Source: Chitinophagaceae bacterium (GTDB lineage: Bacteria; Bacteroidota; Bacteroidia; Chitinophagales; Chitinophagaceae). Taken from it: a DNA stretch of 33,093 bases. How positions within the stretch are numbered: the first letter of the stretch is position 1; the number at the start of each line of letters is the position of its first letter. The stretch is from positions 1-33,093 of the forward strand of contig CANEWJ010000013.1 of assembly GCA_947442625.1 (NCBI GenBank). The letters are read 5' to 3'. Positions 763 to 3,184 of this stretch are shown piece after piece. Both the position numbers and the translations under genes were made by a program. Under the pieces are notes generated by a model, which saw only the letters and a program-made list of their open reading frames with translations, had not been told where the DNA came from and did not search any database.

Positions 763-2355
763 ATGGAAAGTAAAACACAAAATAAAGCAGTTGATCAAAA
801 GCGGTCTGCTGGAGACTATAAATTGCTGAAATCTCCTACAGGAATAAAGGGGTTTGATGATATTACTTTTGGCGGGCTTCCCCTCAATCGGCCAACCTTA
901 TTGGTTGGATCCATCGGGAGTGGTAAAACCTTCTTGGCAATGGAATATATCATCAATGGAATAGAAATGTTCAATGAGCCAGGCGTTTTCATGACTTTCG
1001 AAGAAAAAACGGATGAATTGCTGGAGAATGTTTCTTCGCTTGGGTACGATATCAATCGGTTTATAGAAAACAAGACCATATACCTCGAACATTTGGAAAT
1101 TGGTTCTAATATCAGCAAAGAAGTGGGCACTTATAAAATTGATGGATTATTTATAAGGCTTGAGCAAGCCATTGATAAGGTGAATGCCAAAAGGGTAGTA
1201 CTTGATTCTCTTGATACCCTTTTTGCAAGTTTAGACAGGCATATTTTGCGTTCTGAGTTCAAAAGACTTTTTTCATGGCTAAAAGATAAAAAGGTTACAG
1301 CCATCGTGACGGCAGAATTGGGGGACGTTTTCTTGACACGCATGGGTTTGGAAGAACTGATTGCAGATTGCGTCATCGAGTTAAGCAACAGGATAACCAA
1401 CCAGGTCAGCACAAGAAGATTGAGGGTTTTGAAATTCAGGGGCTCACCCCATGCATTAAATGAATATCCATTTATCATTGACGAAAACAGGTTGACTGTA
1501 TTCCCTCTGATCAGCCAGGGGCTTCAACAAAAATCAAGCAATGAACGCATCTCCTCAGGCATCAAGAAGCTGGATGAAATGCTTGACAACAAAGGGTTTT
1601 ATTTAGGTAGCAGTATTCTTATTTCAGGCACAGCAGGCACTGGAAAATCAAGCCTGCTCGCATCGTTTGCCAATGATGTTTGCAGTAACAACCAAACATG
1701 TCTTTTTTGTGCATTTGAAGAAGCTCCCAATCAGATCATCAGAAATATGTCATCGATAGGCCTTAACCTTCATCCACATGTTGCATCCAACAAATTGCAA
1801 TTTTATTTTGCTAGACCTTCTCTACAAAATCTTGAATTGCATTTTATGGCCATCAAAGAAACCATAAAGAGTGTAAAGCCTCAAGTTGTTGTACTTGATC
1901 CGATCACCAACCTGATGACTGAGGGTCCGAACAGTGATGTAAGGAGCATGCTGACCAGGTTCATTGATTATTTGAAGACAAAGCAAGTCACTGTCATGTT
2001 TTCAGCAGCCATCACCATCGGTTCAATCTCCCGAAACCCAAGTGACGAGGGCATTTCATCCATGGTAGATACCTGGATCATGTTGGAAGACCTGGAGTTG
2101 GAAGGAGAACGCAACAGGAGCATGTATGTCATGAAATCAAGGGGAATGGACCATTCAAAAGAAGTCAGGGAGTTTATCATTTCTTCGAGCGGGATAAACC
2201 TCATCCCGATAGCAAGAAACAAGCAAGGCATTTTAATTGGATCTAAAAGGGTGGCAGCAGAAAAAGAAAGCAAGAAAGCAGAAAAAGAAAGCAAAGAAAT
2301 TGTGGGTAAGAAAAACTTTCAACATCAGTTTTCAGAAGATGGTGATGTTCAATGA
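763..2355 (+). CDS. kaiC: KaiC-like double-domain RecA-family ATPase
   Basis: A 530-residue protein with two RecA/KaiC domains in tandem, as in cyanobacterial KaiC (about 519 residues). Domain 1 has Walker A GSIGSGKT (residues 49-56) and the glutamate pair E80/E81. Domain 2 has GTAGTGKS (289-296) and E319/E320. LKFRGSPHALNEYPF closely resembles the end of the KaiC CI domain. Positions matching the CII autophosphorylation sites T426, S431 and T432 are S427, S432 and S433 in SDEGISS, so all are hydroxyl residues. The C-terminus does not resemble the KaiA-binding A-loop and tail; it is a Lys/Glu-rich segment with a short repeat. In cyanobacteria KaiC is a hexameric autokinase/ATPase and the core of the circadian oscillator; outside them KaiC homologues are linked to stress or signalling. 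A kaiB gene follows 57 nt downstream. Kinase activity is inferred. Confidence 0.93.
   Translation: MESKTQNKAVDQKRSAGDYKLLKSPTGIKGFDDITFGGLPLNRPTLLVGSIGSGKTFLAMEYIINGIEMFNEPGVFMTFEEKTDELLENVSSLGYDINRFIENKTIYLEHLEIGSNISKEVGTYKIDGLFIRLEQAIDKVNAKRVVLDSLDTLFASLDRHILRSEFKRLFSWLKDKKVTAIVTAELGDVFLTRMGLEELIADCVIELSNRITNQVSTRRLRVLKFRGSPHALNEYPFIIDENRLTVFPLISQGLQQKSSNERISSGIKKLDEMLDNKGFYLGSSILISGTAGTGKSSLLASFANDVCSNNQTCLFCAFEEAPNQIIRNMSSIGLNLHPHVASNKLQFYFARPSLQNLELHFMAIKETIKSVKPQVVVLDPITNLMTEGPNSDVRSMLTRFIDYLKTKQVTVMFSAAITIGSISRNPSDEGISSMVDTWIMLEDLELEGERNRSMYVMKSRGMDHSKEVREFIISSSGINLIPIARNKQGILIGSKRVAAEKESKKAEKESKEIVGKKNFQHQFSEDGDVQ
2257..2294 (+). repeat. In-frame tandem repeat in the kaiC tail
   Basis: A 17-nt sequence, GCAGAAAAAGAAAGCAA, occurs at 2257-2273 and again at 2278-2294. 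The 21-nt period adds a seven-residue unit (AEKESKK, AEKESKE). It lies in the charged C-terminal tail, where cyanobacterial KaiC has its KaiA-binding segment. The unit number may vary between strains through slippage. Confidence 0.8.
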
Positions 2356-2412
2356 GATGTTTCAATTTCATCTTCTGGTCATCATTTAACGTACAACCAA
2401 GAAAAAAAGCAG

Positions 2413-2730
2413 ATGATTAACCTTCGAAAAATTCTCGATATCAATAACCGGAAAGGAGAAAAAAATGAATTCACATTTGAATTATTTTTTGCTGGCGATA
2501 CACCCATTTCTTTAAAGGCAGCAAGCAATGCAAAAGCAATTTTTGACAAGTATTGTAAAAACAATTATACTATGCATTTATTTGATATTAATAAAAATAC
2601 AGCATTGGTAGAGAGGGAAAATATCATTGCTGTCCCTCTATTGGTAAGAAAAAGTCCATTGCCAGAAATCAGGATGATCGGTGACTTTTCTGATATGCAA
2701 AAAGTAAAGAATGAATTCTTGATTCGTTAA
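2413..2730 (+). CDS. kaiB: KaiB-like protein
   Basis: A 105-residue protein with the KaiB thioredoxin-like domain after about 17 extra N-terminal residues. Family blocks are FELFFAGDTPISLKA (KaiB: KLYVAGNTPNSVRA), a central HLFDINKNTALVERENIIAVPLL, and PLPEIRMIGDFSD (KaiB: PPPVRRIIGDLSN). The prolines tied to KaiB fold switching (AVP, PLP) are present. In cyanobacteria KaiB binds the KaiC CI ring and sequesters KaiA; with no kaiA here, it more plausibly modulates the neighbouring KaiC or links it to another partner. The A/G-rich AAGAAAAAAAGCAG before the ATG may help ribosome binding. It starts 57 nt after kaiC and ends 13 nt before the next gene, so co-transcription is likely. Confidence 0.9.
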   Translation: MINLRKILDINNRKGEKNEFTFELFFAGDTPISLKAASNAKAIFDKYCKNNYTMHLFDINKNTALVERENIIAVPLLVRKSPLPEIRMIGDFSDMQKVKNEFLIR

Positions 2731-2743
2731 AATACCTTGTTTC

Positions 2744-3184
2744 ATGACAAAAAATTATATCAAAGAGTTGGATTTTATTCTTTTTTCATTGATCAATGAA
2801 TATGAAAATATCAATGACGGAGTTAATTTCTATCAGGAGGAAGCCCCAAAATCAACAAAGGAAATGGTGACTGAAATGGTCATTGCGAAATATAGTTTAA
2901 AGGAATGGGAAATCAATGTGCTCTTTCATCATTTGTTGATTGACAAATATATCATCAGCATTGAACCCCTCACCATCTCATTGGAGGGTATTGTGTTTGA
3001 AGGAAATGGCGGTTATGCCGAAAAAAGTGTACAAGAAAAATTGGAAAATGCCCGCATCAAAAAAATTGAAAATGATCTGAATAAATATTCATTCGGTCTT
3101 ATGGTATTTACAGGTGTTGTTGCTATTGGTACCCTTATCTCAGCAATTTATTTTATGCTTGAAATTTGGAAGCATTTTACCTGA
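2744..3184 (+). CDS. Small protein with one C-terminal membrane segment, third gene of the kaiCB unit
   Basis: I do not recognise a named family. The 146-residue product has a soluble N-terminal part (about 1-100) that looks mostly helical; the segment around residues 38-75 could be a winged-helix-like fold, but this is a guess. A charged helix, KSVQEKLENARIKKIENDL, follows (about 93-111). A hydrophobic stretch, FGLMVFTGVVAIGTLISAIY (about 117-136), should be a transmembrane helix close to the C-terminus. No signal peptide is visible, so a tail-anchored topology with a cytoplasmic N-terminus is likely. It begins only 13 nt after kaiB on the same strand and ends the unit, which suggests a role with KaiC/KaiB, perhaps as membrane anchor or output partner. 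That role is inferred from position only. Confidence 0.72.
   Translation: MTKNYIKELDFILFSLINEYENINDGVNFYQEEAPKSTKEMVTEMVIAKYSLKEWEINVLFHHLLIDKYIISIEPLTISLEGIVFEGNGGYAEKSVQEKLENARIKKIENDLNKYSFGLMVFTGVVAIGTLISAIYFMLEIWKHFT

Follow-up and report, generated by a model that had tools for sequence, protein, structure and literature searches.

A small membrane-anchored protein at the operon place of the histidine kinase in a KaiC clade of the Chitinophagaceae

The genes described here lie at the start of a 33,093-nucleotide (nt) stretch of DNA from a Chitinophagaceae bacterium (GenBank assembly GCA_947442625.1, contig CANEWJ010000013.1), the whole of which we call the window; it is contig C13 of a 2.6 Mb draft genome in 211 contigs, labeled G000 below. 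They encode a KaiC, a KaiB, and, as the third gene, a small membrane-anchored protein. With a probability of about 0.5, we read them as a kinase-free, reduced KaiBC system whose PAS histidine kinase output would have been replaced by the membrane-anchored protein with its probable winged helix. The genes are (lengths in amino acids, aa):

763..2355, + strand: kaiC, 530 aa, KaiC2-type, two RecA-like domains (PF06745 twice), short C-terminal tail
2413..2730, + strand: kaiB, 105 aa, single copy (PF07689, 1.1e-14)
2744..3184, + strand: third gene, 146 aa, with a likely winged helix over residues ~3-91, then a linker and, near the C-terminus, a membrane helix (117-135)

A preliminary description of this DNA had placed two-domain KaiC and KaiB homologues here, with a small membrane-anchored protein 13 nt further on, and this holds in each part: both Pfam families are matched, the spacer is 13 nt (2731-2743), and the open reading frame (ORF) at 2744-3184 has one C-terminal hydrophobic segment.

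Within the family, kaiC was found in 37 of 294 genomes (40 matches), and 39 of the matches were examined, comprising four loci with the third gene (third-type loci) and 35 others; G069:C27 was left out. In the others, two kaiBs directly follow kaiC at 32 of the 35 loci (one kaiB stands in front in two, and there is none in G218), and a relative of the kinase at L057 starts within ~0.7 kb behind kaiC, on the same strand, at 34. The kinase ORF is broken or partial in three of these (G129, G285, and the second of G077), and the four kinases given to Pfam all possess PAS, HisKA, and HATPase domains. The divergent kaiC of G218 (L083:6342-8464), with neither kaiB nor kinase, has a CheB methylesterase gene immediately downstream.

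The third gene stands at the kinase's place in the operon. Across ten third-type loci, no kinase was found within the available contig stretch (0/10) and no pair of kaiBs (0/10); one kaiB is present in seven and none in three. When nine of these genomes were searched, no kinase match covered residues 1-63 of the usual kinase, as matches in G289, G260, and G223 do. G588 was outside the whole-genome KaiB and kinase searches, and its kaiB was found from its locus.

The search for the third gene covered 294 genomes of the family, 41 of the genus, 396 of the order, and 395 of the phylum, in overlapping samples. A full close relative, sharing at least 48% identity, was found in ten genomes: seven of the genus (G000, G324, G318, G314, G139, G320, and G328) and three from other genera of the family (G010, G281, and G588). 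A genome contig scan gave the closest three at 93-94% identity (L005, L006, and L007, from G324, G318, and G314, respectively). Outside the family, these samples held no close relative and one distant match (G925, 2.1e-8, in the phylum sample).

In all ten genomes, the third gene is the next gene after kaiC or kaiC-kaiB and shares their strand, and seven different genes come next downstream. By Pfam, these are a GFO/IDH/MocA gene in G139, a Mur ligase in G320, and a sigma-70 factor in G281; those in G328, G010, and G588 were judged by eye, and a di-haem peroxidase gene follows in the window's group of four. Because the downstream genes differ, the pairing of kaiC with the third gene does not appear to be just inherited surroundings. 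The two genes also come and go together in the genus, where 7 of the 41 genomes have the clade-type kaiC and a full third gene and 33 have neither a kaiC nor a full third gene; G286 has kaiCs of other kinds and no third gene. In G319, one of the 33 (79% complete, no kaiC match), 28 residues of the membrane helix encoded by the third gene remain at L108 (G319:C116), ~2353-2436; they are probably what is left of a lost operon of this type, and G319 is not counted among the ten.

A KaiC tree of 43 rows, which leaves out three KaiCs of less than 450 aa (G069, G285, and the second of G077), places the ten third-type KaiCs on one side of a branch with support of 100/100 and a long stem of 1.22 changes per column. 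The tree carries warnings for long branches, including G328, and for the odd make-up of G588. When the tree is oriented by the Synechococcus elongatus KaiC and G286b, the clade is nested inside the kinase-type loci, and for this reason it most likely lost the kinase and one kaiB. The kinase operon is present in G193, which shares its genus with G281 and G588, and these last two stand apart on the tree; the operon may therefore have moved between lineages. On the same tree, the third gene outlasted KaiB in two lines, G318/G314 (which share a junction) and G281.

Selection was assessed as the ratio of nonsynonymous to synonymous substitution rates (dN/dS) among the four closest genomes. The third gene is under strong purifying selection (0.037-0.083, six pairs), so the third ORF is a real gene, and its range is like that of kaiC (0.058-0.087, six pairs), so that the two are held equally tightly. 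KaiB is held less so: in the one pair of the four where both genomes have kaiB, its value is 0.206, as against 0.083 for the third gene and 0.087 for kaiC. Comparisons of kaiB with G139 gave 0.33 and 0.41, with synonymous sites near saturation.

The KaiC itself retains its ATP sites and the residues for catalysis and phosphorylation. The two PF06745 stretches score 3.9e-101 and the NCBI family NF006799 1e-189; the best solved relative is the Rhodobacter KaiC 8dba (2.1e-146), with the S. elongatus KaiC 1tf7 well behind (8.9e-91). The window protein carries the Glu pairs in TFEEK and AFEEA and a Ser-Ser phosphosite in GISSMVD; both P-loops, both Glu pairs, and the serines at 431/432 (S. elongatus numbering) are kept in 10/10 KaiCs of the clade. 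By these motifs, its two RecA-like domains, and the adjacent kaiB, the system would fit the KaiBC (KaiC2/KaiB2) type.

One feature common in the KaiC2 subgroup, a C-terminal extension of ~50 aa forming a coiled coil, is not seen in the window KaiC; such a long tail is typical rather than universal, so its absence is no bar to membership. The PAS histidine kinase partner gene, frequent in KaiBC systems although it does not define them, is likewise absent here. After S. elongatus position 494, the tail has 35 residues in the window KaiC and 5-35 across the clade; in the other kaiC loci it has 82-96 residues in 23 of 35 and 0-51 in the remaining 12, some of which are fragments. A Rhodobacter study (PMC10076222) describes the tail as a coiled coil by which two hexamers are held together, links it to dephosphorylation, and reports that KaiC without the full tail remains hexameric and is still able to phosphorylate. 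By analogy with the truncated form, the window KaiC should be a hexamer.

The short tails bear on an unlikely alternative, in which the third protein is an input or regulator that stands in for the coiled-coil tail or for KaiA: it would keep KaiC at the membrane and determine how KaiC is phosphorylated. In its favor, all ten clade KaiCs are short-tailed, the Rhodobacter tail has the link to dephosphorylation just given, and there is a precedent in Synechocystis, where a little-known gene beside kaiB3 was noticed by co-occurrence and its product (Sll0485) named KaiA3 for its KaiA-like part (PMC11372060). Like that gene, ours is a little-known neighbor of a kai gene; unlike the third protein, KaiA3 joins a NarL-type receiver to the KaiA-like part, in a comparison made by description only. 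However, short tails also occur in kinase-type operons that have no third gene (G045, G264, G242, G230, G271, and G027), and four of these (G242, G230, G271, and G027) branch outside the clade. We therefore did not keep the idea that the clade lost a long tail on gaining the third gene; it may never have had one. The A-loop segment next to the tail also looks degenerate, by eye, in three of the ten (G328, G281, and G588).

We turn to the third protein, for which nothing was found above the Pfam or NCBIfam cut-offs. It has one strongly hydrophobic segment, at residues 117-135 and 11 residues from the C-terminus, and the stretch before it is weakly positive (+1 to +4), which would fit a soluble domain lying in the cytoplasm, where KaiC is. 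Distant relatives came as ten matches in nine of the 294 family genomes, at 26-34% identity; eight of these were aligned, leaving out L018 (a near copy of L017) and L020 (E 0.009, within a 238-aa ORF resembling a different protein), and the third gene of G010 was kept out of the alignments for its stop codon. A profile-profile alignment to the distant family extends over 132 columns (hhalign probability 99.1%, E 5.8e-19), with a shallow query profile (effective number of sequences, Neff, 1.5). The consensus runs from a helix with LDxxL, through a helix ending in DKY or DGY and a strand pair around ISFEGxxFxxxGGY, to a linker and one or two membrane helices. These results place the third protein in a wider family of small Bacteroidota proteins that likely combine a winged helix with membrane helices at the C-terminus; we found no name for the family.

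When 147 family genomes were searched with a 14-member profile, 12 had a match, and three of the 12 are third-type. Among solved structures, this profile gave nine matches, including RPC6 (E 0.0018), SarZ, the predicted transcriptional regulator 1xma, SloR, and Lmo0740, together with reverse gyrases and a reverse transcriptase. A profile built from just the eight distant members gave ten, including three PadR regulators, RPC6, PscE, eS19, Lmo0740, a reverse transcriptase, and a proteasome subunit, and one from just the six close members gave none. RPC6, PadR, SarZ, and SloR contain winged helices, and the N-terminal domain is likely one too. Viral contigs scanned with two distant members held no further relatives. 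A role in anti-phage defense was considered and set aside: among six proteins given to PADLOC, P0003 had no match and one distant member had a weak LmuC match (0.0065). Two distant relatives (L013 and L021) stand beside IS1595-type transposase genes by Pfam, and L016 beside a similar ORF by eye.

The third protein might instead be a membrane-bound transcription factor, with the winged helix binding DNA under the control of KaiC, and the weak profile matches to the winged-helix regulators PadR and SarZ are what speaks for it. The charge of the domain argues the other way, being net -5 to -8 by sequence in all six KaiC-linked third proteins examined. An acidic domain speaks for contact with protein rather than with DNA, and we regard the transcription factor as distinctly unlikely.

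KaiB is the least constant part of the operon. It lies between kaiC and the third gene in seven of the ten clade genomes, and PF07689 was not found above the family cut-off in G318, G314, and G281, of which the latter two are given as 100% complete and G318 as 79%. In these three, the third gene sits directly behind kaiC, and in two of them its start overlaps the kaiC stop. Matches to PF07689 below the threshold (E 0.002-0.009) are seen in the KaiB-less genomes and also in genomes with a true KaiB, and are therefore taken as another protein. A change peculiar to the KaiB-less genomes was sought by eye in the KaiB-binding loop of KaiC, where G318 and G314 proved identical to G000; in this loop the whole clade differs from the other kaiC loci. 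In a KaiB tree of poor resolution, the window KaiB is nearer to the second than to the first KaiB of the usual operon; its grouping with the first KaiB is not rejected (approximately unbiased test, p 0.205, long branches).

The intermediate position of kaiB in seven genomes might mean that the third protein acts with KaiB, as a kaiCB-membrane unit, but this is very unlikely given that the third gene is kept in the three genomes without KaiB and that KaiB evolves more loosely than either of its neighbors. What was first described as a kaiC-kaiB-membrane protein unit is thus not constant, since KaiB is missing in 3/10; what is constant is the pair of KaiC and membrane protein, adjacent in 10/10 genomes wherever KaiB is absent or lies between them. 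The best reading is still that of a switch based on KaiC with a membrane-anchored partner.

Several points should be set against our reading of a reduced system with a replaced output. The ten cases make up one KaiC clade and so do not count as independent pairings. The wider family shows that this type of protein can do without KaiC: none of its distant members was found beside kaiC, all nine genomes with distant matches lack a kaiC match, and among nine further genomes the only kaiC carrier, G027, has its weak match ~126 kb from a kinase-type kaiC. Homologues occurring mostly without kaiCB had been named beforehand as evidence against the unit, and that is the situation in the wider family (9/9 genomes), but not among the orthologues, all ten of which lie beside kaiC. 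In G010 (L052:6173-6613), the reading frame of the third gene is interrupted once, by a TAA at codon 54, with kaiC and kaiB intact; this would be either a recent loss or a sequence error. Some contigs are short: the G328 contig extends only ~0.9 kb past the third gene, and kaiC is at the very start of the G318 and G314 contigs. The structure matches behind the winged helix are weak (best whole-sequence E 0.0018), and no single stretch is significant alone, for which reason the fold is called likely; AlphaFold on four third-protein sequences reached a predicted local distance difference test score of 42.6 and was not used as evidence. The least likely explanation, that the third gene is an unrelated neighbor carried along in the operon, draws on the single clade, the relatives away from kaiC, and the G010 stop codon, and runs against the adjacency in changing surroundings, the joint presence and absence in the genus, and the strong purifying selection.

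Because the third gene occupies the kinase's place, is tied to the kinase-less clade, is kept in every clade genome found, and outlasted KaiB, the most economical reading would make its product the new partner of KaiC at the membrane. Judging from the kept residues, KaiC hexamers would bind and hydrolyze ATP and phosphorylate themselves on two adjacent serines, and their state would perhaps follow the ATP/ADP ratio of the cell, as reported for Rhodobacter. The acidic domain of the third protein may then read the state of KaiC, and the protein may bring KaiC to the inner membrane or pass its state to a membrane target. KaiB would modulate the cycle where still present and would not be needed. 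Direct binding, direction (output rather than input), and target are what we infer here.

Among known systems, the closest are the operons of Rhodopseudomonas palustris and Rhodobacter sphaeroides, which consist of kaiC, kaiB, and a PAS histidine kinase gene without KaiA, the third gene being the presumed partner (PMC4794148), with a Rhodobacter KaiC of the KaiC2 subgroup carrying two serines (PMC10076222). KaiC with its two serines, KaiB, and a third gene as presumed partner are shared with the window; unlike those operons, the window type has a small membrane-anchored protein as its third product, a KaiC without a long tail, and a KaiB that can be missing. With the kaiC-kaiB-kaiB-histidine kinase operons of its own family, it has in common the KaiC subfamily and the operon place of the partner gene, and it differs in possessing one KaiB or none and a membrane protein instead of two KaiBs and a PAS kinase. 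The third protein resembles the wider Bacteroidota small membrane proteins over the 132 profile columns and, unlike them, sits beside kaiC. As for the KaiABC oscillator, Pfam found no KaiA in 26 ORFs of the window (23 of these reached the cut-off of some family), in agreement with the preliminary description, smaller and overlapping ORFs and the rest of the genome not having been searched. The arrangement would thus be a KaiBC variant with a swapped partner gene. One survey states that the Bacteroidetes that stand out encode only KaiB2/KaiC2-like proteins and that central output factors are missing outside cyanobacteria (PMC5520375), and among the open-licence papers listed for KaiC, no title or abstract opening describes the present arrangement.

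Elsewhere in the window and its genome, the kai genes are flanked on the other strand by an Ldh_2 gene upstream and a di-haem peroxidase-like gene downstream of the third gene (both by Pfam). There is one KaiC in the genome, the second PF06745 place being a 467-aa frame on contig C143 that is taken as RadA. An exopolysaccharide cluster (window:10838-29185) holds export and Wzz-like proteins, glycosyltransferases, a Wzy-like protein, a UDP-GlcNAc 2-epimerase, an initiating sugar transferase, and a NusG-like antiterminator (window:14096-14653).

Rhodopsin genes were found in 35 of 47 genomes searched, including our own (G000:C15:14457-15119). They occur in nine of ten third-type genomes but in only two of the 33 whose kaiC operon is of another type (Fisher p 9e-7). 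Within the genus, 7/7 third-type and 26/33 kaiC-less genomes have rhodopsin (p 0.32), so the association between rhodopsin and the third gene may be explained by lineage.

For KaiC signaling outside cyanobacteria, this clade offers a natural experiment in which the kinase and one KaiB are gone, a membrane protein is in, and KaiB is gone again in parts. The arrangement names one candidate partner for KaiC, and the naturally KaiB-less KaiCs let one ask what KaiC does alone. Tentatively, and with somewhat less than even odds, these small-genome, mostly rhodopsin-bearing bacteria would represent a new Kai class, in which KaiC has a dedicated membrane-anchored winged-helix partner in place of a two-component kinase, KaiB is on the way out, and the switch acts at the membrane without a phosphorelay. 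In this clade, a protein timer or switch of long standing may have been connected to a different partner.

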